This document shows positions 11,941-60,822 of a DNA stretch of 64,000 nt, in pieces (position 1 is the stretch's first letter; each line of letters starts with the position of its first letter). A program made the translations under genes and the position numbers. This DNA comes from Bacteroidota bacterium (GTDB lineage: Bacteria > Bacteroidota > Ignavibacteria > Tepidaquicellales > Tepidaquicellaceae). The notes under the pieces are model-generated. The model made no database searches. It had not been told where the DNA came from and worked only from the letters and a program-made list of their open reading frames with translations. Location of the stretch: contig JAFDZR010000010.1 in assembly GCA_018266875.1 (NCBI GenBank), positions 71,172-135,171 on the forward strand. Direction: 5' to 3'.

Positions 11941-12016
11941 CTGTTACTAAGTATCCTAACTTACCGGGAAAATCAGTTTGTGAAAAATAAAAGAATCTCT
12001 GAGTCATCAGTGATGT

Positions 12017-12159
12017 GATTTGAATAAGATTTGAATAAGATTTGAATAAGATTTGAATAAGATTTGAATAAGATTTGAATAAGATTTGAATAAGATTTGA
12101 ATAAGATTTGAATAAGATTTGAATAAGAATCGAATATGAATCGAATAAGATTTGAAATA
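12017..12159. repeat. 11-bp tandem repeat, about 13 copies
   Basis: Ten perfect head-to-tail copies of gatttgaataa run from 12017 to 12126, followed by three degenerate copies to 12159 (gaatcgaatat, gaatcgaataa, gatttgaaata). The array lies between the stop codon of the O-methyltransferase gene and the comEA-like operon, about 77 bases upstream of that operon's candidate promoter. Because 11 is not a multiple of three, each frame reads as an 11-residue peptide repeat, which creates a spurious ORF on the minus strand. No leader or spacer variety is present, so this is not a CRISPR array. Confidence 0.97.
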
Positions 12160-12179
12160 GATAATAACTGCGTCAAAAA

Positions 12180-14188: not shown

Positions 14189-14977
14189 TCATTCCTTAAT
14201 ATAACTTTTCAGATTGTCCAGTGATATGGCGATCTGCGCCGGACCATAAACATATGGAGCTATTTCGTAATTGTTGTAATAAAATTTAATGGAATCTTCC
14301 GATAAGGCAAAGTTGTCACTATATGTTATTTTATTTTCGAACAGTCCGGCTTTTGTAAGATCTTCTGTCATAGAAAGACCCTTTTCTTTTCTGAATGTAC
14401 TGTCAACCATTCTGTTGAGAATATTTTCATAACCCGGTTTGAAAATGTCATTAAGCGTCAGGACATCCCCTGTCGTTTTTCCAAAGACAGTGTATTTTAA
14501 ATAAGAATTAGGGTGCGCTCCTCCCGTGAAAATATAATAACTTATTGTCAGCGTAAAATATCCGGGAGTTTCTGATATTATCTCGGAATTAGCTTCTAGG
14601 CTGTATGACATATCAGGAACAGGAGATATTTTTTTTAATTTTTCAAAGTCAGCAAAGAAATTCATTGCAAGTTCATCCAGGGAATTGTTTAACTCTCCTT
14701 CCTGCTGATAAATGCTGTCCCTGAGAAAAGAAGAAATATATCCGTTAACCTTTGCTTTAATGTCTTCATTTAAAATTTCCGGATACTTCATGTCAATGTA
14801 AGTGCAACCAGCGGAATCAATATTGCAGTTATTCACTGACTTTTTAAATTCTTTCATTTTAAACTCTATTTTCCCTGACGATACGTTTTTCAATTCTTTG
14901 ACTTCCGTTTTTGTATCCTTTTTGCCGCATGAAATTAAAACTGCGCATAATATAAGAACTGAAAAAAAAATTTTCAT
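14189..14977 (-). CDS. DUF3298-containing lipoprotein
   Basis: The 262-residue precursor has a lipoprotein signal, LISC with the cysteine at residue 17, so it is probably lipid-anchored on the outside of a membrane. The rest matches the DUF4163/DUF3298 architecture known from anti-sigma factor RsiV: TLTISYYIFTGGAHPNSYLKY near 159-179, where the GGAHPN motif is the family hallmark, and the following VLTLNDIFKPGYENIL. In RsiV this domain binds lysozyme; whether that holds here is unknown. There is no membrane-spanning anti-sigma part and no sigma factor gene beside it. Confidence 0.85.
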   Translation of the reverse strand: MKIFFSVLILCAVLISCGKKDTKTEVKELKNVSSGKIEFKMKEFKKSVNNCNIDSAGCTYIDMKYPEILNEDIKAKVNGYISSFLRDSIYQQEGELNNSLDELAMNFFADFEKLKKISPVPDMSYSLEANSEIISETPGYFTLTISYYIFTGGAHPNSYLKYTVFGKTTGDVLTLNDIFKPGYENILNRMVDSTFRKEKGLSMTEDLTKAGLFENKITYSDNFALSEDSIKFYYNNYEIAPYVYGPAQIAISLDNLKSYIKE

Positions 14978-15044
14978 ACAGATTGTTTTTTAAGTTATGT
15001 AAATATAATTGAATTAGCTTTCAGTAGACAGACAGAACAGAGTA

Positions 15045-18026
15045 TCAGGCATTATGGTTTTTTATGAGTTCATTTATGGCTTCATTTGTTGTGACTTTTT
15101 TTCCCCTGTTGAATTCTTCAAGCGTTTTTTGTTCGTCAAAAGACATACTGCATTCCCTGTAAATCCTTTCTATTCCCGATTTCAACTCTTCTTCATAATA
15201 AGCACCGGAAGATTTGTATTTCTCTTCTATTACACCTGCAAGATAAACCGCTTTCATAAGATCTCCGCGGACACGGAATATCTCCGCCATTCCGAATAAA
15301 CCTGCAGCAGCTGTGCTGAGCTCAGGACTGTCTGTCTGATTTGAAAGACAGTTCATAAAATTAATTTCAGCATTTTCATAATCCTCTTCCCCGAAATATA
15401 CCTGCCCCAGCCCTGCATAAGAATGAAGTATTCCAAGCTGATGTCCGATCTCTCTGCTTATTTGAAGTCCTTCCTCAAAATACTTTTTAGCGGATGTGAA
15501 ATCCCGGCTTTGTATTGACAGTTCGCCCATGTTGGAAAGAGAAATACTGATCCCGTTCTTGTTGCCAAGTTCAATATCCATTTTCATTCCCTCTTCGAAA
15601 TACTTTCTGGACAAATCAAAATCTCTGTCAAGAGCGTATGCTTGGGCTAGATTGTTCAGTCCGATCCCAATATAATCCGCGTCTTTTTCTTCCCTGGCGA
15701 TTTCAAGACTTTCGGTAAATCTTGTCTTTGCATTTTTCAGATCACCTGTTGCAAGCGAAGTTAGACCCAGTGAATTTAGAGCTGTGCAAATTCCCATTTT
15801 ATTTCCCAGCTCTTTGCGTATCTTCAGGCTTTCAGTTAAACATTTTTCCGCGCTTTCATATCGGGCGAGATCAATTTCAATGTTTCCGAGTACATTTAGG
15901 CAGCCGGCAATTCCGTTTTTATCATCAAGCTTTCTGTAAATTTCCATACTTTCATTTACGAATTTTTTGGCTGCTGTCTGCTCACACTGCAGGGTAGCAT
16001 ATATCCCGGCAATCCGCAGTGAATTGGCTCTGAGATTTTCATCAACTTTTTCCGGCTTGCTGAGCAGCTTGTCCAGCCAGCTTCTCGCTTCGCTGATGTA
16101 ACCTCTTTTCTCCCAGAATCTGGAAAGACTTCCTGCCAGTCTGTGACATTCCTCCGTTAAATTTTCATCCAGCGACCATTTCAAAGCAGACTGAATATTT
16201 GAATATTCCTCTTCAAACAAGTCCAGCCAGTATTTAACTTTTATTCCGGTAAGTTCCGGTAAGGCATTCCTGCACAGTTCAAGATAATAATTAAAATGAA
16301 TGTTGTGAATTAACTTATGTTCCCCGCTTTCGAGAAGTCTTTCATTACCATACTGTCTTATAGTTTCAAGCATTTTATATCTTTCCTTATTTTCATCAAA
16401 CAGCACAAGGGATTTTTCAATTAATCCCTGCATGAGATCCAGTATATTACCGCTGCTTAGATTTTCATCCGAACAGATCTCTTCGGAATCGTTGAGTTTC
16501 CAGCCGCCTGAGAATACAGACAATCTTCGAAGTAAAATTTTTTCGGATTCGGAAAGCAGATCATGACTCCAGTCTATCAATGCTTTCAGAGTCTGCTGTC
16601 TGGGAAGCGCAGTTCTTGCGCCGCCGGTAAGCAGTCTGAATCTGTCATTGAGTTTCTCAAAAATTTTTTCAACTGTTAAAACCTTGGTTCTGACTGCAGC
16701 GAGTTCGAGCGCAAGCGGTATTCCGTCAAGCTGAAAGCAGATCTGCGCAAGCGCAGGCGCATTTTCATACGTAACTCTGAAATTCGAATTCACCAGCAGC
16801 GCTCTTTCGGTGAATAATCTTACCGCTTCAAACCGGATTAACTGCTCGGGGCTGTAAGATATTTTCGGATCGGGATGTGATAGCGGCAGGACAAGATGTA
16901 TATTTTCACCTTTGCATTTAAGCGCTTCGCGGCTTGTTGCTATTATTTTGATACCGGGAAAATTCTGAATTATTTTTTCAGCAATTGAAGCGCATGCATC
17001 AATGATGTGCTCGCAGTTATCAAATATCAGCAGTAATTTTTTATTTTTAAAATTTTTGAACAGCGATGTCTCGGGCTGAGTACCCGGCTCTTCCCTGATT
17101 CCCAGAGAATCGGAAATCATAACGGAAATAAGATCCGGATCCAGCAGAGAAGCCAGTTCAATTATCCACACTCCGTTTTCAAAATCATCGATCATATCCG
17201 CTGCGATCTGAAGCGAGAGTCTCGTTTTTCCCGTTCCGCCCGGACCAAGCAGAGTCAGAAGTCTGTTTTTATCCAGTATGTTTTTAATTTCCGCTATCTC
17301 TTTTTTTCTGCCGATAAAACCTGTAAGCTGGACGGGAAGATTGTTCGGACGCGAATCAAGAGTTTTCAGAGGCGGAAAATCCTTAATCAGATCACCTGCA
17401 ATAACCTGATGTAGTCTTACCGGCTGATTCAGATCCTTTAATCTCCTTTCACCGAGATCTCTGAAAGACACTTCAAATACACTGAGATCTGAAGATACTT
17501 TTTCAGATCTGTTATCCTCTGTCCCTGTCACAGGTCCGGGTAAGCCGGTATGTTCAAAATAATCAGAATCCTTTGCAGTTTTTCTTTGAGTCCCGGAGTC
17601 TTTCACGAAAAGATCATATGAATCACCTGAAATTATTATCTGACCGCCGTAAGCCGATGACATTACTCTTTCGGTCCGCGCAAGTGTAAGATAGCCCATG
17701 TATCTTTCGCCGTTCCATTCTGCATTACCTGAATGAATTCCCATTCTGACTTTTATAACGGCTTCATCCCAGTTTTCATCTGCAAGGTTATGCTGCGCAT
17801 CCACTGCTGCTTTTACGGCATCCGCTGCATTTTCAAATGAACTGCAGAATGCATCACCAATGATCTCAAATACAAAACCATTATTTGATTCGATCGCTTT
17901 TCTTAATGCGGAATGATGTTTTTTCAACGCCACTGGAAGTTTATCCGGATACTGCTGTGAAAGCTTTGTACTGCCTTCAATATCAGTGAAGAGAAATGTA
18001 ACCGTTCCCGAAGGTCTTTTATCCAT
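15045..18026 (-). CDS. Cyclase-homology / NB-ARC ATPase / TPR regulator
   Basis: This 993-residue cytoplasmic protein has three parts. Residues 8-135 are a class III nucleotide-cyclase domain with both metal-binding aspartates (Asp15 in FTDIEGST, Asp58 in EIIGDAF). A predictor-like alignment puts Ala116 where active cyclases have the transition-state Asn, while the following Arg120 is kept. Residues 230-560 are an NB-ARC-type ATPase, with Walker A GPGGTGKT at 261-268 and Walker B LLLIFDN at 331-337. From about 600 to 930 there are at least seven TPR units of roughly 40 residues. A 40-residue insertion (141-185) separates the cyclase core from its final segment. Such proteins are thought to sense a partner through the TPRs. 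Cyclase activity is doubtful because of the Asn replacement. Confidence 0.88.
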   Translation of the reverse strand: MDKRPSGTVTFLFTDIEGSTKLSQQYPDKLPVALKKHHSALRKAIESNNGFVFEIIGDAFCSSFENAADAVKAAVDAQHNLADENWDEAVIKVRMGIHSGNAEWNGERYMGYLTLARTERVMSSAYGGQIIISGDSYDLFVKDSGTQRKTAKDSDYFEHTGLPGPVTGTEDNRSEKVSSDLSVFEVSFRDLGERRLKDLNQPVRLHQVIAGDLIKDFPPLKTLDSRPNNLPVQLTGFIGRKKEIAEIKNILDKNRLLTLLGPGGTGKTRLSLQIAADMIDDFENGVWIIELASLLDPDLISVMISDSLGIREEPGTQPETSLFKNFKNKKLLLIFDNCEHIIDACASIAEKIIQNFPGIKIIATSREALKCKGENIHLVLPLSHPDPKISYSPEQLIRFEAVRLFTERALLVNSNFRVTYENAPALAQICFQLDGIPLALELAAVRTKVLTVEKIFEKLNDRFRLLTGGARTALPRQQTLKALIDWSHDLLSESEKILLRRLSVFSGGWKLNDSEEICSDENLSSGNILDLMQGLIEKSLVLFDENKERYKMLETIRQYGNERLLESGEHKLIHNIHFNYYLELCRNALPELTGIKVKYWLDLFEEEYSNIQSALKWSLDENLTEECHRLAGSLSRFWEKRGYISEARSWLDKLLSKPEKVDENLRANSLRIAGIYATLQCEQTAAKKFVNESMEIYRKLDDKNGIAGCLNVLGNIEIDLARYESAEKCLTESLKIRKELGNKMGICTALNSLGLTSLATGDLKNAKTRFTESLEIAREEKDADYIGIGLNNLAQAYALDRDFDLSRKYFEEGMKMDIELGNKNGISISLSNMGELSIQSRDFTSAKKYFEEGLQISREIGHQLGILHSYAGLGQVYFGEEDYENAEINFMNCLSNQTDSPELSTAAAGLFGMAEIFRVRGDLMKAVYLAGVIEEKYKSSGAYYEEELKSGIERIYRECSMSFDEQKTLEEFNRGKKVTTNEAINELIKNHNA

Positions 18027-18233
18027 TGTTAAAGATTTCAGTTTGAAAATTGTAATCTGAAAAGATAAGACATTCGGTATAATTAAAAAGAAATGTATCC
18101 TTTCCGTATCGTGATATCAGCATAAGTGTTTAATTCTAATTCAGGTTACAATTTACAAAAATATTTCTGAACATTGAATAATATATACTGAACATTTTAC
18201 GCTGAATAATGAAAAGCGGAAACCCTGAGCGGG

Positions 18234-18266
18234 AAAAAAATCAGCGCAGACAATTGCCTGCGCTGA
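18234..18266 (-). terminator. Intrinsic terminator of the neprosin-like gene
   Basis: TCAGCGCAG (18241-18249) pairs with CTGCGCTGA (18258-18266) around an 8-base loop. On the minus strand the stem is followed by seven T's (18240-18234), the classic intrinsic terminator layout, and it lies 26 bases after the stop codon of the neprosin-like gene. Confidence 0.85.
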
Positions 18267-18292
18267 ATTTTGAATTCAAGAATTGCCGGATG

Positions 18293-19510
18293 TTAAGCTC
18301 CGGGTCCGCCAAGCCACATATAGCTTCCCCATGTGGAACCGCTGTTCATATGCGTCTCAAGGTCATACTGACCGGGATCGCTTGCATTGGAAGTTCCGTT
18401 ATAGTTTGACATGCTCCCTCCGGTGGATGACTGATATTTTAGATTTCTCATGTATGCAGCCCATTTCCATCTGTACTCCGGCCAGTAACCGCTTCCCATG
18501 TCTGTTCTTGTCAGACCTGCATGATTTGCCGAATCCACTATTTCTCCGTAAAAGGCAATTTTATCCGCTTTAGATCTTAAGCCCGAAGTGCTGTAAAGAC
18601 TTGCAGGATAATATCCTATCCATTGGTTATTCACTTTAAGCCACCAGTTCCCCTGATAAAGCTGATATTTAAACTGCATAAATCTCTGGGAACCTCCTCT
18701 TACGCTGTAAGGAGTAAATGTTGCTCCCGGATAAATTGAGGATGAATACTGAACCCAGCCGTCAACATCCCTGTTGTATCCGCCTTTGTTATCGCCTGAG
18801 CTGGTGTAATTATTTGTTGTATAGTAAACAAAAAGATGAGGCTGCCAGTCACCGTAAAGATCCTTGTATGCCTGCCATCCGGCTTCGAGAGTCTGTCTGC
18901 TGTTCCCGCTTCCCCTGACAAGTGCGATCTGAAGAAGTGAAAACTCATTTGAGTACTGTGTATAGGGATCGAAAGCGCTGCATGCGAACTCTCCGCCGTA
19001 ACAAGTTACATACTGGTAAGTGTTTGCATAATCATGCGCGCCGTCTCCCGGAACTTCTATTACGTGTTCGTTTCCTTTAAATACTGATCTGGTTTCTCTC
19101 TCATACTTTGACAGATACGATTTCAGTGATTTTGAATAGTTAATTTTTCTGACATCCTTTCTCAAGACTGGAACAGTGCCTTCAGGACCTTTTGCAATTC
19201 CTTTTTTCTCAAGTTCAAATACGGAAAGCGTATCTTTCATTCTTCCGGCCGGAGCTTTGATCATTTCCAGCGGAGGAGGAGATGCTATTTTCCCGTTCCT
19301 GACCTGGGAATTGATATCAATCCAGTCAAGGATCTGCCCGCCCGGGGTTCTGGTGGTTTTTACAATCTTAAGTTTTGAAGTTCTTTTTTCAAAGTAGGAG
19401 ATTAATTCCTTTTTGTTTCTGAGGAGAGTTTTTTTATCAACAGCTGTTTTTATTTTTCTTTTTAAAGAGCTGATATCTCCTTTTCCTGTGTTTCTCTGAC
19501 TTTCGTTCAT
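18293..19510 (-). CDS. Neprosin-like glutamic peptidase
   Basis: This 405-residue protein matches the neprosin family (DUF239), glutamic endopeptidases that cut after proline, best known from pitcher-plant digestive fluid. Family landmarks are the NEFSLLQIALVRG segment (188-200), EAGWQAYKDLYGDWQPHLFVYYT (209-231), GNWWLKVNNQWIGYYPASLY (287-306), and a MGSGYWPEYRWKWAAYMRNL segment (338-357). The likely catalytic pair is Glu209 and Glu323 (in YGEIV), 114 residues apart, close to the 109 known from the plant enzyme. An N-terminal region with the motif LDWIDINSQV (61-70) corresponds to the family's activation segment. No signal peptide is seen, and in-frame stops lie just upstream of the ATG, so export is unexplained. 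The upstream leader is highly structured. Confidence 0.85.
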   Translation of the reverse strand: MNESQRNTGKGDISSLKRKIKTAVDKKTLLRNKKELISYFEKRTSKLKIVKTTRTPGGQILDWIDINSQVRNGKIASPPPLEMIKAPAGRMKDTLSVFELEKKGIAKGPEGTVPVLRKDVRKINYSKSLKSYLSKYERETRSVFKGNEHVIEVPGDGAHDYANTYQYVTCYGGEFACSAFDPYTQYSNEFSLLQIALVRGSGNSRQTLEAGWQAYKDLYGDWQPHLFVYYTTNNYTSSGDNKGGYNRDVDGWVQYSSSIYPGATFTPYSVRGGSQRFMQFKYQLYQGNWWLKVNNQWIGYYPASLYSTSGLRSKADKIAFYGEIVDSANHAGLTRTDMGSGYWPEYRWKWAAYMRNLKYQSSTGGSMSNYNGTSNASDPGQYDLETHMNSGSTWGSYMWLGGPGA

Positions 19511-19841
19511 GTTATTGTTTTTTTAATTTTTTCAGCTTAGCTCTCGTTTAAAGCTGATCACGCTCTGTATCCGGACAGAGATCAGGAAGCATTAAGATTA
19601 ACCCGAAGAGTTAATGATGCCGGATAAGTAAACAAAACTATGAGTTCTGAATAACAAAACATATGGATCTAATTACTTTTTATTGATAAGTATAAACACT
19701 CAACGGGAAAAACTTTCCGGAACAGGTTTCCGGGAGTAAATTACGGATTTATTTAAAATGTTTTCGGAAGGATGATAAAAAAAAAGCATTGAAAAAGAAT
19801 GATGAGGACAGATCCGGAGAAACTAAACTTTTAAAGTTATT
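19511..19841. other. Structured intergenic region upstream of the neprosin-like gene
   Basis: This 331-base stretch holds the neprosin-like gene's promoter and leader and the end of the VOC gene. Three inverted repeats cluster at 19532-19620: TCAGCTT/AAGCTGA (19532-19557), CTCTGT/ACAGAG (19563-19580, also flanked by GATC on each side), and ATTAAC/GTTAAT (19597-19615, extended by GCAT/ATGC). No ORF or known riboswitch is recognised. The remaining half appears unstructured apart from short repeats of ttccgg. Confidence 0.55.
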
Positions 19842-20231
19842 TTACTCCGTAACTTTATCCCAGTCTTCTGTATCAAATCTTTGTATTTCGATCAGATAAC
19901 CGTCGGGATCCTTAACGAAGCAGTTGTAAATTTTAAACTGTTCATTGTAAGCCGGTTCCTTTGCTATAACGATCCCCGGAATGTTTTTTTTCAGCTGCTG
20001 AAATACAGCATCGACTTCCTGCGTAACAAAAGTAATTACCGCATTATCACTCACTCTGAAATTTTCCTTTCTGCAGAATCCTATGAATGTATCTGCCGGA
20101 GTTTTATAGATCCTGCACGGTCCCTGATCCAGCGTTAATTGAAATTCAAAAGCTTTTTCATAAAACGAAGAAGTTTCTTCCAGATCTTTTACGCTTAAAA
20201 ATATTATCTGCGAATCAAATTTCATTTTCAT
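19842..20231 (-). CDS. VOC-family (glyoxalase/bleomycin-resistance fold) protein
   Basis: The 129-residue protein has the beta-alpha-beta-beta-beta repeats of the VOC fold: SQIIFLSVKDLEETSSFYEKAFEF at the start, and FKIYNCFVKDPDGYLIEIQRF at the end, where the DPDGYLIEI motif with its metal-ligand glutamate is a hallmark. Substrate cannot be told; members include glyoxalase I, dioxygenases and antibiotic-binding proteins. It is a single-domain protein that would dimerise to make a metal site. It is cytoplasmic with no signal peptide. Confidence 0.85.
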   Translation of the reverse strand: MKMKFDSQIIFLSVKDLEETSSFYEKAFEFQLTLDQGPCRIYKTPADTFIGFCRKENFRVSDNAVITFVTQEVDAVFQQLKKNIPGIVIAKEPAYNEQFKIYNCFVKDPDGYLIEIQRFDTEDWDKVTE

Positions 20232-20307
20232 AAATTTAAATTAATCTGTTTCCCGGATAAATATTACTGAAATAAATTTACCGGTTAAAAATAAGTTATC
20301 TTCAGTA

Positions 20308-21717
20308 TTATACAGTTTCATTTGCTTCCTTTTCTTTAATAACGCTGTTTTTCCTAGCGAGCCGGATAAGTTTGTTTTTCTCAACCAGGTATGCCGTTGT
20401 CCATTTTTCAGCTTTGTGATGAAGCGGCACAAGCAGCGCGGCAATACACACCAGAGCCAGAAGCATAAGTAAAGGATTATGATCCGTTAGTTCCTCTAAA
20501 ACCGGATGCAGTACAAGGTTCAGAAATTCAAATACTATCAGCAGAGACATCACTCCGAAAAATTCTATCAGTCTCGGATTTGAAATTATACTCGGTCCGA
20601 GAAGTATGTAAAGAATTACAGTAGTTAAGATACCGAAAGCGAGAAGTAAATATTCGATCTGCTTTTTTCTTTTATATTCCTCTTCCATCTTCCTGTCATT
20701 TTCTTCCATGATCCGGAGCTTCTCATTAAAAGCCAGCGCCTGAACTTTATCTATATTTTTCTGACTGAATATCCGGTCGCTCATATTCATTTCCATTTTT
20801 GAATAATAATATGCGCTGTCTGTCTTATTCATTCTTTCATACACTTCCTTTAAAAAATGTGCACCCGACATCTTCAGATTATCATCATCACTCTCACCGG
20901 CAAGCTTCATTAATTTATGCGACTGATCGTATGCATCGGATATCCTGTCATTCCTCAATAAAAATTCAATGTAACTTTCATAAAATTTCAGTTTCTCCTC
21001 TTCCAATTCTATGGAATCCGTAATGTCAAGAGCTTTGATGAAATATTCCTCTGCAGTGTTATTGTTACCCATCATTGCATATACAGAACCGTTCAGATAC
21101 AACGCTGCATATTCAAACAGAACGCTATTGATCCTGCTGCTTGTTTTTGTTAATTCCTGAACAAAGTGCAGCGCGGAATCCGCCTGACCGGTTAATATAA
21201 AATACTGCGTCAAATTTCTTTCATACTGCACAAGCATATAATCATAATAAGGATAGGACTTATCCGGCAAATTCTCCCCGCCTTTTATAACGTTTTTATA
21301 TGCTTCATCATAATTCATGAGATTAAAATACACTGTTGAAATATCAAAATACAAAGAACTTATTCTTCGTTTATCATTTGATTTTTCCGCAAGCGGAATG
21401 CCTTTGAATAAATATTCCAGGGAAGTATTATTGTCGCCTTTACTGAAAAAATACAATCCGATCAGGTTATAACTGACTGCGAGCAGAGAATCATTATCCA
21501 GTTCTGATGCGATCTGAAACATTTCCACACAGGATGCGGAGTCAATGTTTCCCGCGCTGAAGTTTATAAAATCTGAAATTTTATTCAGAACATGAAACCG
21601 CTCAGCAGGATTGCCGGCGCGGGCAAGTTCAGATCTTAAACTGTCCGGTATTTTATTCTGAGCTGATAATATCTGAAAGCTTATCAGTAAACAAAAAATA
21701 ATTACAGGAATTTTCAT
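20308..21717 (-). CDS. TPR sensor-like membrane protein without a kinase domain
   Basis: The 469-residue protein has a signal peptide (cleavage near ILSAQ, residue 20), about six TPR units between residues 60 and 300, a coiled-coil stretch near 310-350 (EEYKRKKQ), and three membrane segments around residues 352-376, 385-410 and 416-436, followed by a short basic tail. The layout resembles the sensory half of TPR histidine kinases and LuxR regulators of Bacteroidota, but the kinase or output domain is missing and the chain ends in a normal stop. It may work with a separate partner. No response regulator is nearby. Confidence 0.75.
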   Translation of the reverse strand: MKIPVIIFCLLISFQILSAQNKIPDSLRSELARAGNPAERFHVLNKISDFINFSAGNIDSASCVEMFQIASELDNDSLLAVSYNLIGLYFFSKGDNNTSLEYLFKGIPLAEKSNDKRRISSLYFDISTVYFNLMNYDEAYKNVIKGGENLPDKSYPYYDYMLVQYERNLTQYFILTGQADSALHFVQELTKTSSRINSVLFEYAALYLNGSVYAMMGNNNTAEEYFIKALDITDSIELEEEKLKFYESYIEFLLRNDRISDAYDQSHKLMKLAGESDDDNLKMSGAHFLKEVYERMNKTDSAYYYSKMEMNMSDRIFSQKNIDKVQALAFNEKLRIMEENDRKMEEEYKRKKQIEYLLLAFGILTTVILYILLGPSIISNPRLIEFFGVMSLLIVFEFLNLVLHPVLEELTDHNPLLMLLALVCIAALLVPLHHKAEKWTTAYLVEKNKLIRLARKNSVIKEKEANETV

Positions 21718-21889
21718 AAATATAAAATTATACGCCGGGAATGTTGTTTCCGGATTACAAATATAATATTAATAATTGATTTATCAGAATTCAATTTTCT
21801 TCTCAATGAAAAAGAATCCCCGTACTGACTTTCTATCAAATTTAAAGATCATCTTTTCACTGATTTTCACAAACAAAGAATTTTACATA

Positions 21890-21920
21890 TTTGATTAAAT
21901 CTTTCAAAATTGTATTTTTA
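21890..21920 (+). promoter_or_regulatory. Putative Bacteroidota-type promoter of der
   Basis: TTTG (21890-21893) and TATTTTTA (21913-21920) are separated by 19 bases, one mismatch from TAnnTTTG. The element lies 81 bases before the der start codon. Confidence 0.5.
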
Positions 21921-22001
21921 GCCGGAATGTAATACTGATCACCGTAATTATTTAAAGTTTAAGTCATTGAATCACCTTTCTAATAAGAGTAAATTGAAAT
22001 C

Positions 22002-23366
22002 ATGGAAAAAATAGTTGCGATCGTCGGAAGACCTAATGTGGGAAAATCAACTTTGTTTAACCGACTGGTGGGAAAACAGAATGCAATTGTTCATTCCCAG
22101 AGCGGAGTCACAAGGGACAGAAATTACGGTGAAGTGGAATGGACGGGAAAGAAATTTTTTCTGATCGATACCGGCGGTTTCGTTCCTGATTCAGATGAAC
22201 AGTTTGAAAAAGCCATACGTTCTCAGGTAAAGCTGGCAATTGATGAAGCCGATGAGATACTTTTCGTAGTTGACGCTAAAAACGGCATGCATCCGGTTGA
22301 CAAGGAACTTGCTGACATGCTTCGCAAACATTCCGATTCAAAAAAGATAATCCTCGTTGCAAACAAGATCGACATTGTGGAAAGGACTTCAAACGCGCTT
22401 GAGTTTTATTCCCTTGGACTGGGCGAACCGTTTGCGATGTCCGCCATCAATGGTTTTAATTCAGGCGATCTGCTCGATATCGTTACTGAAGATTTTCCGC
22501 TGACTGAAGATGAACCGGAAGACAATACAATTAAATTCGCTATTATCGGAAAACCAAACGCCGGAAAATCCTCCATAGCAAATGCGCTTCTCAATGAAGA
22601 AAGAAATATTGTGACCGATATTCCCGGCACCACAAGAGATACAATCGACTCCAATCTCACATACTACGGCGACGATATTGTCCTTATAGACACAGCGGGT
22701 CTCAGAAAGAAAACCAAAGTAAAGGAATCGATCGAATTTTATTCCACTATCAGGACATACAAGGCGATTGAAAGATGCAATGTCGCAATACTTGTCATTG
22801 ACGCGATTCCCCTTCTTGAAGAGCTGGATAAATCCTCTGATATAAAACTCGCAACATTCAAACTTGATAAGCAGGATATTAAGATAATTGAGGATGTGGT
22901 AAGGCTTAGAAAAGGTCTCCTGATAGTAATAAACAAATGGGATCTTGTTGAAAAAGATTCAAACACAGCAAAAATAGTTGAGCAGAAAATCACGGAACAT
23001 CTGAAAAGCTATACATATCTCAAATTCCTTTTTATTTCAGCTCTGACAAAACAAAGAATACACAGAGTGCTTGAAGATGCCGTAGCAATTTACAAAGAGC
23101 GCGCTAAGAAAGTCAAGACAAGCGAACTCAACGAAGTCCTGCTGAATGAAATAAAATCCACCCCGCCTCCTTCGTTGAGAGGCAAGGAGATAAAAATTAA
23201 TTATATAACGCAGATCAAAAGTTCTCCGCCGGTTTTTATTTTTTTTGTAAATGATCCCGACGGGATCGAGGATAATTATAAAAGATTCCTTGAAAAAAAG
23301 CTCCGGGAAAAATTCGGATTCAGGGGAATTCCCATTGATCTTGTATTCAGAAGGAAGAATAATTAA
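22002..23366 (+). CDS. der: Ribosome assembly GTPase Der (EngA)
   Basis: Der is a double-GTPase that helps assemble the 50S ribosomal subunit. The 454-residue protein has two G domains in tandem: GRPNVGKSTLFN with DTGGFVP and NKID in the first half, and GKPNAGKSSIAN with DTAGLRKKTKVKES and NKWDLVEK in the second. The C-terminal KH-like domain (about 360-454) includes INYITQIKSSPPVFIFFVNDP. A 25-residue loop in the second G domain (LEELDKSSDIKLATFKLDKQ) is longer than usual. It is followed after 66 bases by yifB on the same strand. Confidence 0.97.
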   Translation: MEKIVAIVGRPNVGKSTLFNRLVGKQNAIVHSQSGVTRDRNYGEVEWTGKKFFLIDTGGFVPDSDEQFEKAIRSQVKLAIDEADEILFVVDAKNGMHPVDKELADMLRKHSDSKKIILVANKIDIVERTSNALEFYSLGLGEPFAMSAINGFNSGDLLDIVTEDFPLTEDEPEDNTIKFAIIGKPNAGKSSIANALLNEERNIVTDIPGTTRDTIDSNLTYYGDDIVLIDTAGLRKKTKVKESIEFYSTIRTYKAIERCNVAILVIDAIPLLEELDKSSDIKLATFKLDKQDIKIIEDVVRLRKGLLIVINKWDLVEKDSNTAKIVEQKITEHLKSYTYLKFLFISALTKQRIHRVLEDAVAIYKERAKKVKTSELNEVLLNEIKSTPPPSLRGKEIKINYITQIKSSPPVFIFFVNDPDGIEDNYKRFLEKKLREKFGFRGIPIDLVFRRKNN

Positions 23367-56177: not shown

Positions 56178-59123
56178 TTACTTCACAAGCACCATGCGCT
56201 TTATGTCAACGAAGTTCCCCGATTCCAGTCTGTAGAAGTAGACTCCGCTTGCAAGACTGCTGCCGTTGAAATTCACATCGTAATTTCCCGCCTGTCTTAT
56301 TTCATTTACAAGCGTCATTACTTCCTTTCCTAAAATGTCATACACTTTCATATTTACAAATCCCTGCTTCGGAATTGAGAAGCTGATCTTTGTCGAAGGA
56401 TTGAAAGGATTCGGATAATTCTGTGAAAGAGAAAATATTGAAGGAATGGAAACGGTATTAGTTTCAATTCCAGTTATCAGTGAAATATCAATTTGTATGT
56501 TTGCGCGGTTGAAGCTTTGTGTCAGACTTGTCGGATACTGTGTATCGCTCTGAGCTCGTCTCGACAGATAAGATAAGGAAGTTGAATAAGCGTATCTCGG
56601 ATAAGTATTGACATACTGCTGAAAGTCCCTGCCGATCGATATCATCAGATTCTGAGTCGGATTAATTGAAAAAGGAGTTGTAAGCTGAATCTCTGTCCAG
56701 CCGGGAGCTGAAAGACTGTTGATATTTCCTTCAAACACAACCGTCATGCCGGTTGTGTCCCATGTTCCTGAAGGCAGAGTTATATCAGTCGTTGTTTTCA
56801 TTAACACCCTCACATTTTCGCTTGTAACTCCTCCTACATTATTGTTCTGATAGAATTTGATCTTTCTGATCTGACCAGTTGTATTGATTTCCGATCCGAG
56901 ATAAATTCCCTGCCATCTGTAATAATTGTAAAACCTGTTAAGAGGATAAGACTCATCAGCTGTTCCTGTTCCGATTGTGATCGAAGAAATGGGAAGTCTT
57001 CTGAGCCTGAGACTGAATGTCTGCGCAGATGCAGCGGAATCATTGGCGCTGTAAGCATATACGCGCCACAGTCCCTGTATGGAATCGCTTATTCCGGCTC
57101 CGAGAGATGCAGCCAGTGAATCAAGCTGAGAGACCCTTATATTTACCGAAGTATCAAATCCGTTATTTCCTGATCTGAATATACTTTTTATATTTGAAGA
57201 ATTTGAAAAATCCGGATAAGCAAACATCCATTTATAAGTAACTCCGGTTCCGGATCTTGTCCATTTCGGTGAAGCGACTGTATAGTCTGTCGGTGTTGTC
57301 TGAATTGTCGTTCCGGATGGCGGCGAACTCAAATTAAATGAAGTCAGAGCGGGAATACCTCTTGTGAAGTTTACAGCTCTGGGTCCGTTTGCAGCTGACA
57401 ATGAATCAACAGTAGGAAGCTGTCTGTAAGCATTTGCATTCCACTGACCTGAATATGTCTGTCCCTGATTTATTCCCATTCCGGCAAGGATTTCATCAAG
57501 CTGCCCTAAAGTGAATGTGACAGAGTTTGTTCCTGATGGAACCGTGATTTTCCTTGTGCTGATAGTCGGCGATCCGAATATCCATTTATATTCCACTCCG
57601 GTTGCGCAAGTATCCCAGTTGAAAGTAACCGTTGAAGTTGAATTCGGTAATGTGGTTATTGTCTGTCCGGCAGCAGGCGACTGCAGATTGAAACTGTTCA
57701 GTACAGGAACATTTGTGATCTTAACTTTATTTACGAGTTTCGCTACATTGAGTCTTCCGTTTGAAACCGTTATGCCGTTCAGAGATGGAAGAGTATCCAC
57801 GGTTGATAAAATATACTGCTTGAATAATCTTGCAAGCGAATCGGGTCTTGTCCTTCCGAGCTGTATGTAAACCGAACCGGCTGCTGCATGCATAAGAGCA
57901 ACCGCTCCTGCAACCTGCGGAGTAGCCATTGATGTACCGGTTAAAAGTCCGTATGAATTTGTAGGGATAGTTGAAAGTATGCTTGTTCCCGGAGCTCCGA
58001 GATCCATATTTATCGGACCGTATCCTGCGCCCGAGTTTTTCGCGTCAGTGTTGGTTGTATTCGTGACAGCAATAAGAAAATCACTCGGACAGGTGGTGGG
58101 CATATCTCCGACAACGTCAATATTCACATTATTATTCGGACCTGCTCCGCAGCTTAATATTCCAGCGCTGCCGAGAGTATCATAAAATGCGCACCATAAA
58201 GGATAATTTGACGGCTGCCCGTTATCAATTCCCCATGAAGAATTTGTCGAAACAACGTATGCGCCCATTGTCCCGTTTGACTGATTGTATAATTTCCTTT
58301 GTTTGAAAACATAACCATAAGCTTTGACAGCATTGGCTTCTGTAGCTGATCCGTAAACGACAGGCATTGTTTTCACCTTCCAGTTTACACCTGCAACTCC
58401 GAGACTGTTATTTCCCATTGCGCCTGCAATTCCAGCGCAGTGAGTACCGTGCTGATTTGCGGGAATTGTTCCGTTGTTGCTTCCTGCATTCCATCCGTAA
58501 ATATCATCTACATAGCCATTGTTATCGTCGTCAATTCCGTTTCCGGGAATCTCCGCATAATTTACCCAGGTATCAAGGTCCTGGTGATTAGTCTGCTGAC
58601 CTCCGTCAACTATTGCAACTACAATTGTATCTCCGAGAGATGTAACGCCGCCAGTAGTTACTTCCCATGCTTCAGGAGCATCAATATCCGCGTCAGGAGT
58701 TCCGCCCGTCTGCCCCGTATTGTTTTTGTCCCACTGTTCCGAAAATCTTGTGTCATTCGGAAATAAAGGAGGCATTACCCTTTCTTTAAACCTGTGATTG
58801 AACTGGGCAATAGCTACTTTGTCATTTCTCATAACCGACATAAGCGCATCCACCGGCTGTGATCTGGAAACGTCATACTGAAAGAGATAAATATTCATGT
58901 CCTTTACAAGCTCTTCTTTTACGATCATTCCGATATCCGAATAATTATCCGCAAATTCCTGCGCGTTGACCGGAGAGTTGAACATGACAATAAGATCACC
59001 TTCGATGTAATCTTTATCGTTTAAATAACCGGAGAGATCATTTCTGCTGTTTGTGTCATCATTGAGGAACAAAGAAAACAGAAGTAATGTCGTTACCGAT
59101 AAAAAAAGTAGGGATGTTTTCAT
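56178..59123 (-). CDS. T9SS-secreted subtilisin-family serine protease
   Basis: The 981-residue precursor has a signal peptide, an I9-like inhibitory prodomain (about 38-115) and an S8 catalytic domain. The catalytic triad is Asp173 (VAIVDGG), His225 (NQHGTHCAGIAG) and Ser398 (LTGTSMATPQVAG); the oxyanion Asn is near 330. Two tandem Ig-like/SusE-like repeats follow (about 470-595 and 600-715; the repeated phrase FNLxSPxxGxT), then a beta-sandwich and a T9SS sorting domain (QNYPNPFNPSTKI, GVYFYRLESGNF, RMVLVK). It is secreted through the outer membrane and would act as a broad protease. It ends the block of minus-strand secreted proteins. Confidence 0.96.
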   Translation of the reverse strand: MKTSLLFLSVTTLLLFSLFLNDDTNSRNDLSGYLNDKDYIEGDLIVMFNSPVNAQEFADNYSDIGMIVKEELVKDMNIYLFQYDVSRSQPVDALMSVMRNDKVAIAQFNHRFKERVMPPLFPNDTRFSEQWDKNNTGQTGGTPDADIDAPEAWEVTTGGVTSLGDTIVVAIVDGGQQTNHQDLDTWVNYAEIPGNGIDDDNNGYVDDIYGWNAGSNNGTIPANQHGTHCAGIAGAMGNNSLGVAGVNWKVKTMPVVYGSATEANAVKAYGYVFKQRKLYNQSNGTMGAYVVSTNSSWGIDNGQPSNYPLWCAFYDTLGSAGILSCGAGPNNNVNIDVVGDMPTTCPSDFLIAVTNTTNTDAKNSGAGYGPINMDLGAPGTSILSTIPTNSYGLLTGTSMATPQVAGAVALMHAAAGSVYIQLGRTRPDSLARLFKQYILSTVDTLPSLNGITVSNGRLNVAKLVNKVKITNVPVLNSFNLQSPAAGQTITTLPNSTSTVTFNWDTCATGVEYKWIFGSPTISTRKITVPSGTNSVTFTLGQLDEILAGMGINQGQTYSGQWNANAYRQLPTVDSLSAANGPRAVNFTRGIPALTSFNLSSPPSGTTIQTTPTDYTVASPKWTRSGTGVTYKWMFAYPDFSNSSNIKSIFRSGNNGFDTSVNIRVSQLDSLAASLGAGISDSIQGLWRVYAYSANDSAASAQTFSLRLRRLPISSITIGTGTADESYPLNRFYNYYRWQGIYLGSEINTTGQIRKIKFYQNNNVGGVTSENVRVLMKTTTDITLPSGTWDTTGMTVVFEGNINSLSAPGWTEIQLTTPFSINPTQNLMISIGRDFQQYVNTYPRYAYSTSLSYLSRRAQSDTQYPTSLTQSFNRANIQIDISLITGIETNTVSIPSIFSLSQNYPNPFNPSTKISFSIPKQGFVNMKVYDILGKEVMTLVNEIRQAGNYDVNFNGSSLASGVYFYRLESGNFVDIKRMVLVK

Positions 59124-59256
59124 GGTTATTAATTTATTCTTTAAAAAAATTATAAGTGAAATTGAATACTGTTTTCAATAAAAGAAATCTCTCCGTTTTC
59201 AGAAATAACAGTAAATATTCTGTTAAATATATTTAATTCAGTATAAAAAATTCGGG

Positions 59257-60822
59257 TTATTTAACAAACATCATTACCTTCGTATCAGAAAAATTAAAAG
59301 CTTCCAGCTTTGCATAATATGTACCCGAAGCAAAATTCAAAGCATTCCATTCCACTTCATATGTTCCGGGCTGAAGATTACCGTCCACAAGTTTTATTAT
59401 TTCCTTTCCGTTGGTATCATAGACAGTGATCTTAACGTTTGATCTTGAATTATCCGAGACATCAAATTTAATTTTTGTCGATGGATTGAACGGGTTCGGA
59501 TAATTTCCGTAAAGCCTGAACGAATCGGGTTTCACAGAATTAATCTGCTGTACGTTCGTAATAAAATCAACAATGGCGGTATATAAACTCATTGATGTGT
59601 TGTCAGCTCTTGCCCATATCGGTCTTACTTTTCCGTTAAATGCAGTAATATTTGTATAATCTCCGAAGAAGACAGATGAGCTTGGAGTGAACGGAGTTTC
59701 ACTTACCTTGAAATTAGAAATGGTTTCTCCTGCGTCTGTGGATCTTCCCATATAGACATCCGTCTGATTACTGGAATAATTTCTTCTGTCATAAAATACA
59801 AAATACAAAGTGCCGTCTTTCTGATCGATCGTCATCCAAGTAAAGAACTGCTGTTTTCCCGGAGGATCGTTATTGACTCTTTTCACAGCGCTCCAGGTAT
59901 TTCCGCCGTCCGTTGATTTGATCATCCAGATGTCGGTATCCGTAGCGCCGTTCCTCTGGTCTGACCAGTTTATATAAATCGTACCTCTGTTCGGACCGTT
60001 TGAAATATCGCAGTTTGTAACAGGAAGACCGTTGGCTCTGCTGATACCGGGTATGTCATAATCCCAGCCGGTCGGCTGAGTTGTAACGAAAATATCATTA
60101 TCAAGCCATGTCAGTCCGCCGTCGGTAGATCTGTCCATTACAATTCCAAGAGGTCCTGACCATGAAACATAAATTTCTCCGTTCGGTCCGACTGCGGGAA
60201 CCGCGCCTTCGACAGTGTTGTCACCGTCAAGACAGTCTCCGGCTTTTTTATTAATCCTTAGCGCGCTGCTCCAAGTCTCTCCTGCGTCTGTGGATCTTGA
60301 GAATAAAATTATGGAACTGTCCGAAGGAGAAGAACTGCCGTAGCTGTCAAACTGCGTCCAGGTCATGTAAATATTATTGTTACGCGGATCAACGCAGAGC
60401 CATTCCTTATCCTGCTGTTTCGGAGGAATAAATCCTGTAAAAGATCCGTTGCTCCAGTTCGCTCCGCCGTTTGTTGATTTCTGCACAACAATCCTGTCAA
60501 TAAAATAACTTCCCGAAGGATTCGTAAGATGACCGTAATAAAAATTGCCTGCGGTATCAACTGTTATTGAGGGATCCCCCCAGACGCTGTAGGTGGAGGA
60601 AAGAGTGCCGCGGGTCCAGTTATATCCGCTGTTCGTGGAATAATAATAAAAATTCAGATTCGATCCGGCGACCAGTTGGTCAGTGTTTTTCGGATTAATG
60701 CAGATTGACGGTTCATTCGGAGAACCAGTACTTGTAATGAAGATATTCTGATACTGAGCCTTTGCTATGCTGCAGCCTGCAATGAATATAATTACTGATA
60801 ATATGTATTTAATATTTTTCAT
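59257..60822 (-). CDS. T9SS sialidase-like (Asp-box) surface protein
   Basis: The 521-residue precursor has a signal peptide ending near AKAQ and at least six Asp-box repeats of the form S-T-x-x-G-x-x-W (for example STNSGYNW, STNGGANW, STDAGETW, STDGGLTW, STDGGNTW), which build a beta-propeller. Sialidase catalytic residues are not confirmed: the conserved arginine triad and FRIP motif are not obvious, so it may be a propeller that binds rather than cleaves glycans. The last ~85 residues are a T9SS sorting domain (YGNYPNPFNPSTKIKFD, KEIIKLVDG, GTYYAKLEAFNF, KVMMFVK). Confidence 0.92.
   Translation of the reverse strand: MKNIKYILSVIIFIAGCSIAKAQYQNIFITSTGSPNEPSICINPKNTDQLVAGSNLNFYYYSTNSGYNWTRGTLSSTYSVWGDPSITVDTAGNFYYGHLTNPSGSYFIDRIVVQKSTNGGANWSNGSFTGFIPPKQQDKEWLCVDPRNNNIYMTWTQFDSYGSSSPSDSSIILFSRSTDAGETWSSALRINKKAGDCLDGDNTVEGAVPAVGPNGEIYVSWSGPLGIVMDRSTDGGLTWLDNDIFVTTQPTGWDYDIPGISRANGLPVTNCDISNGPNRGTIYINWSDQRNGATDTDIWMIKSTDGGNTWSAVKRVNNDPPGKQQFFTWMTIDQKDGTLYFVFYDRRNYSSNQTDVYMGRSTDAGETISNFKVSETPFTPSSSVFFGDYTNITAFNGKVRPIWARADNTSMSLYTAIVDFITNVQQINSVKPDSFRLYGNYPNPFNPSTKIKFDVSDNSRSNVKITVYDTNGKEIIKLVDGNLQPGTYEVEWNALNFASGTYYAKLEAFNFSDTKVMMFVK

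Follow-up and report, generated by a model that had tools for sequence, protein, structure and literature searches.

Neprosin of Nepenthes (MEROPS U74.001, as listed in PMC9147577) is represented in the PDB by its zymogen (entries 7zu8 and 7zva) and by its mature form (7zvb and 7zvc). The plant enzyme is active at acid pH and loses its activity above pH 5; substitution of either catalytic glutamate (E188Q or E297Q) inactivates it, the Q173A and W175A variants are likewise totally inactive, about 80% of the activity is lost in H134A, Y136A and Y214A, and disulfide bonds link Cys52–Cys98, Cys219–Cys224 and Cys358–Cys379 (PMC9343461). Orthologues were described as restricted to plants in the same structural paper (PMC9343461), and a search of the open literature found neither a study of a bacterial neprosin nor an intracellular peptidase with a Glu/Glu dyad. 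The gene analysed here lies in a 64,000-nucleotide stretch of contig JAFDZR010000010.1 from a Bacteroidota bacterium, referred to below as the window. Its features are collected in Table 1.

Table 1. Positions of the features discussed, in window coordinates except for the three-gene module, which is given by locus.
Feature	Position	Strand	Basis
Neprosin-family gene, 405 aa	18293..19510	−	ATG at 19510, stop at 18293; PF03080; AlphaFold2 and Foldseek to 7zva/7zvc
Charged helical N-terminal segment, residues 1–44, without hydrophobic core	19379..19510	−	Hydrophobicity; helix 11–44 in model; alignment
Pro-domain-like (activation peptide) region, residues 45–157, including LDWIDINSQV and GPEGTVPVLR	19040..19378	−	Profile match to zymogen; weak PF14365
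Lys135, candidate Lys118 latency plug	19106..19108	−	Invariant in 13 bacterial long-form neprosins
Catalytic β-sandwich, residues 188–403 as scored by PF03080	18302..18949	−	Pfam; pLDDT mostly 70–91; TM 0.84 to 7zvc
Ala196, at the neprosin Trp175 position	18923..18925	−	Alignment; PMC9343461
Glu209, aligned equivalent of catalytic Glu188	18884..18886	−	Alignment with neprosin
Glu323, aligned equivalent of catalytic Glu297	18542..18544	−	Alignment with neprosin
Four-gene accessory block: cyclase-STAND-TPR protein, neprosin, glyoxalase-like, TPR protein	15045..21717	−	Absent from corresponding junctions of same-genus genome G432
Three-gene neprosin module	L002:4926-10955, L006:4947-11165, L007:4893-11042		Novosphingobium plasmids, Actinotalea, Nitrospira MAG

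Family assignment and predicted fold

A sequence-only reading of the window had proposed a neprosin-family glutamic endopeptidase at 18293–19510. These limits are exact for the open reading frame, which lies on the minus strand, a point that the reading had left unstated. The family identity is borne out by Pfam family PF03080 (Neprosin, DUF239), which matches the translation with E = 1.3e-47 (162.4 bits against a cut-off of 22) and spans model positions 2–214 of 214. A single-sequence phmmer search of PDB sequences matched only neprosin entries (E = 2e-26), and a profile of 13 bacterial long-form neprosins, with the window protein as its first sequence, matched the neprosin zymogen in the PDB with an E value of about 1e-87; a search of NCBIfam with the window protein gave no model matches. 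As judged from these sequence comparisons, the family match is far above chance. The motifs EAGWQ (residues 209–213), GNWWL (287–291), MGSGYWP (338–344) and LDWIDINSQV are present in the translation as quoted, while the quoted YASLY is a slight misquotation of YYPASLY. The accompanying statement that the whole family framework is kept holds for these motifs but not for Trp175 and Glu293, both replaced by alanine, nor for the six disulfide cysteines, all of which are replaced.

A structure model had been suggested as a check on the reading, and an AlphaFold2 model built from a 12-row alignment recovered the neprosin β-sandwich fold. The mean pLDDT is 67, with the catalytic sandwich mostly at 70–91 and the pro-domain linker (residues 135–157) below 50; a single-sequence model was discarded as too poor (pLDDT 31.5). 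The five best Foldseek matches in the PDB are all neprosin entries, with TM scores of 0.73–0.74 over 381–388 columns for the zymogen and 0.83–0.84 (2.5–2.7 Å, 259 columns) for the mature enzyme; eqolisins rank far below them. A fold search of BFVD returned weak β-sandwich matches and nothing better.

Active site

The pairing of Glu209 with Glu188 and of Glu323 with Glu297 is the same in every alignment, including that with 7zu8, and both glutamates are invariant in all 21 aligned neprosin sequences. The spacing of 114 residues noted earlier is correct, and the two residues align as the likely equivalents of the neprosin catalytic pair. In the alignment with 7zu8, the equivalents of the plant cleft residues His134, Tyr136, Phe169, Leu171, Gln173, Thr186, Gln192, Tyr194, Tyr208, Tyr214 and Tyr220 are also kept, and two cleft residues are changed: Trp175 to Ala196 and Glu293 to Ala319.

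Alanine at the Trp175 position is also found in three relatives from the Nitrospira order and in six short, mostly actinobacterial forms, and this shared occurrence argues against random decay. The six short forms have a glutamate in place of Gln173 and keep the Glu pair; among the proteins with alanine at this position, the window protein alone otherwise retains the plant-type cleft. Since Ala196 matches a substitution that abolishes activity in plant neprosin, the peptidase activity of the window protein is uncertain, and by analogy with the plant variant Ala196 predicts lowered or altered cleavage.

Pro-domain and disulfide sites

The sequence-only reading had also recognized an N-terminal activation-like region, and both the profile and the fold align this region with the zymogen pro-domain, in keeping with a two-domain layout, although PF14365 (Neprosin_AP) scores only 17.7 bits against a cut-off of 39.2. 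Because the alignment of the 13-sequence bacterial profile with the zymogen begins at chain residue 37 and continues from there onward, the pro-domain appears to be homologous too. From its conservation, the linker residue Lys135 may be the counterpart of the Lys118 plug; MAFFT alignment with 7zu8 instead places Lys118 opposite Ser128, and across this gap the alignment is unsettled and the model weak.

The six disulfide cysteines of the plant enzyme are replaced by Trp, Gly, Gly, Val and Gln and, at the sixth place, by a position without Cys, with the Cys52–Cys98 pair corresponding to a Trp and Gly108. The only two cysteines of the protein, Cys170 and Cys177, lie away from the disulfide sites. 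The loss of these cysteines fits a reducing compartment.

N-terminus and export signals

Signal peptides, here and in the relatives, were called from hydrophobicity and visual inspection. On this basis the absence of a signal peptide and the presence of an in-frame stop upstream, both remarked on previously, are real: the highest 15-residue hydrophobicity within residues 1–60 is 0.03, the N-terminus ranks 53rd in hydrophobicity among the 54 window ORFs of at least 120 residues, about 20 of the other ORFs have clear signal-like N-termini, and the nearest in-frame stop lies about five codons upstream of the ATG. No Sec, Tat or lipoprotein signal was found in the protein, and the 330 bases preceding the gene encode no usable signal peptide in any frame; reading all three frames ruled out one separated from the gene by a frameshift. 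In alignments, residues 1–44 occupy the place of the signal or lipoprotein-like segment of exported relatives.

Five other long-form neprosins, from three phyla, also lack a signal (Novosphingobium plasmids, Actinotalea, the Nitrospira MAG KAN-bin2, Pseudarthrobacter and the Streptomycetaceae genome G1242, which belongs to the genus of Streptomyces acidipaludis). Long forms with hydrophobic signal or lipoprotein-like N-termini occur in the Nitrospira order (G594, G1436, G1365, G1308 and G1444) and in Paracidovorax. The signal-less neprosin of Pseudarthrobacter retains all six disulfide cysteines and the other signal-less relatives retain some or all, so that lack of a signal does not simply equate with a cytoplasmic, disulfide-free protein.

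Bacterial homologs

The window protein clusters in the tree with G594, G1333 and G1436 from the Nitrospira order (support 95/92), whereas the five signal-less relatives form a separate clade (support 100/98) and the plant enzyme lies on a different branch. The lack of a signal, which had been presented as a puzzle, is also seen in a second bacterial clade of the family, and the strongly supported branches require two or more switches in export state. Midpoint rooting, a few long branches and the unusual composition of the window row make the tree good but not final evidence for these changes. The description of the family as known mainly from carnivorous plants was too narrow, as bacterial neprosins also occur at least in Pseudomonadota, Actinomycetota and Nitrospirota. 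A scan of genome contigs with a single protein found no relatives, while a three-sequence alignment query did recover them. Phage records contained no neprosin relatives, and one IMG/VR contig encodes a short-form relative.

Several other arrangements were observed. The short secreted-type neprosins (L009, L010, L011, L012, L044 and L045) are mostly actinobacterial, one being on the IMG/VR viral contig. Paracidovorax anthurii carries three tandem neprosin copies (L008:4686-9665), two with a signal-like N-terminus and a third broken by a TAA stop. In the three-gene module of Table 1, a signal-less neprosin accompanies a protein of about 1160–1220 residues and one of about 410–430 residues (identities of 57–66% and 47–54%); the partner proteins of the Novosphingobium copies gave no Pfam match. 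The module resembles a mobile system that includes a peptidase. Dependence on the module partners was ruled out for the window genome, from which the large partner protein is absent.

Genome distribution and locus

PF03080 was found in one of 396 genomes sampled in the phylum of the window organism, this one alone, and in one of 44 from its order, where a same-genus genome lacks the gene. Elsewhere it occurs in two of 198 sampled Nitrospira-phylum genomes and seven of 236 in the Nitrospira order, in one of 298 genomes around Pseudarthrobacter, one of 300 around Paracidovorax and two of 35 within the S. acidipaludis genus.

The conserved blocks that flank window positions 15045–21717 sit elsewhere in the same-genus genome G432: Der is preceded by a gene related to that at window position 59257, and a DUF3298 gene adjoins one related to that at 56178, both matches being read from N-termini and gene order. 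The four-gene block with the neprosin thus lies at an apparent inversion breakpoint, and the gene order at window positions 14977–22002 and 59123–59257 fits an inversion with its breakpoints there. The first gene of the block (15045–18026) encodes an adenylate cyclase domain joined in one protein to a STAND/NB-ARC-like NTPase and TPRs; many sequences on several G432 contigs match it at the DNA level, indicating a multi-copy family. Also in the window, at 11973–12176, is a small AT-rich ORF built from a tandemly repeated unit of about 11 residues (SNLIQILFKSY).

The GC3 (0.42) and codon usage of the neprosin gene are ordinary for the window, the neighbouring Der and ComM are 89–92% identical to their same-genus counterparts (flanking Der, 89%), and the contig is 210 kb long and contains core genes. 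The typical codon usage and GC3, together with the identity of Der, indicate that the gene is resident; the ordinary composition further suggests that, if the gene was transferred, this did not happen recently or the donor genome was similar. A mis-binned contig was ruled out from the conserved neighbours and codon use.

Functional interpretation

We consider it fairly probable that this is a neprosin-family protein with a pro-domain and an intact Glu pair that is made and retained in the cytoplasm, the location being suggested by the lack of both signal and disulfides. The protein is probably an internal form of neprosin and possibly a weakened or repurposed one. The gene probably descended from exported bacterial neprosins of the Nitrospira-order type, with the export signal and disulfides lost subsequently. 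By extension from neprosin, the pro-domain would hold the protein latent at neutral pH; if the enzyme is active, a water molecule between Glu209 and Glu323 would attack the bond following a proline, and its targets would be intracellular substrates or substrates met after cell lysis. The acid-pH activity of plant neprosin is easier to reconcile with export than with a cytoplasmic location. A broader proposal, that some bacteria have turned an acid-activated secreted zymogen into an intracellular neutral-pH glutamic peptidase with new specificity, or into a binding protein, is put forward tentatively and has less than even prospects.

The main rival to a cytoplasmic peptidase is a pseudoenzyme in which the neprosin fold is kept for binding and the loss of the Trp175 equivalent has ended or nearly ended catalysis. 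The total inactivity of W175A in the Nepenthes enzyme (PMC9343461) speaks for this, as does the second alanine at the Glu293 position, but the retention of both glutamates and of the equivalents of Gln173, His134, Tyr136, Thr186 and Tyr214 would be unusual for a dead enzyme, and the recurrence of Ala175 in Nitrospira-order relatives and six short forms, all with the Glu pair, suggests that the family tolerates alanine at this position in other settings; we regard a pseudoenzyme as unlikely, if still worth serious consideration. Export without an N-terminal signal, through a contractile injection or other non-Sec system, or release by programmed lysis, would accord with the five signal-less relatives in varied hosts, with the three complete disulfide pairs of one of them, which suggest a life outside the cytoplasm, and with the acid-adapted chemistry of neprosin. 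However, the window protein has no disulfides and the window ORFs, of which the N-termini were inspected, included no conspicuous secretion-system gene, making such a route distinctly improbable. An assembly or binning artefact, or a recent transfer from plant to bacterium, could explain the occurrence in a single genome of the phylum sample, but given the long contig with its core genes, the close same-genus matches of Der and ComM, the matching codon usage and the bacterial position of its nearest relatives in the tree, with the plant enzyme on another branch, this can be given hardly any weight.

This protein and its relatives show that full-length pro-domain neprosins with the same Glu pair are dispersed among bacteria; export signals are present in some and absent from others. 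This bears on the origin of the plant family, on whether Glu/Glu peptidases can function within the cell and on which residues are indispensable, and it offers a natural test of the Trp175 requirement in an enzyme that attracts interest for gluten digestion and proteomics.

Comparison with known systems

The window protein resembles Nepenthes neprosin in having a pro-domain-like region, a β-sandwich catalytic domain (32% identity in the structural alignment) and an aligned Glu/Glu pair. It differs in lacking a signal peptide and disulfides, in the alanines replacing Trp175 and Glu293, in a four-residue insertion before Tyr245 and in a pro-domain that falls under the Pfam cut-off. The Nitrospira-order relatives G594, G1333 and G1436 (L036, L049 and L050) share with it DWI in place of DCV, GP.GTVP, alanine at position 175 and GYN..VDGW, but in the two that are complete the N-terminal segment is hydrophobic and signal-like and ends in Cys, and their active sites are altered further (His134 to Arg, Thr186 to Ala, Tyr214 to Thr or Ala, and EAGK). 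Members of the signal-less bacterial clade are, like the window protein, long forms with a pro-domain and no signal peptide; unlike it, they keep Trp175 and the Cys358–Cys379 pair, and three of them belong to the three-gene module that is absent here. Eqolisins (glutamic peptidase family G1; scytalidoglutamic peptidase, 2ifw, and SCP-B, 1s2b) share the β-sandwich at the level of a weak match (TMt of about 0.57), show no sequence match and use a Gln/Glu dyad; Gln107 of SCP-B occupies the neprosin Glu188 position (PMC9343461), where the window protein has Glu209. The protein adds a variant to a known family, some bacterial members of which, including the Novosphingobium copies, already carry the name 'neprosin family prolyl endopeptidase' in database records.
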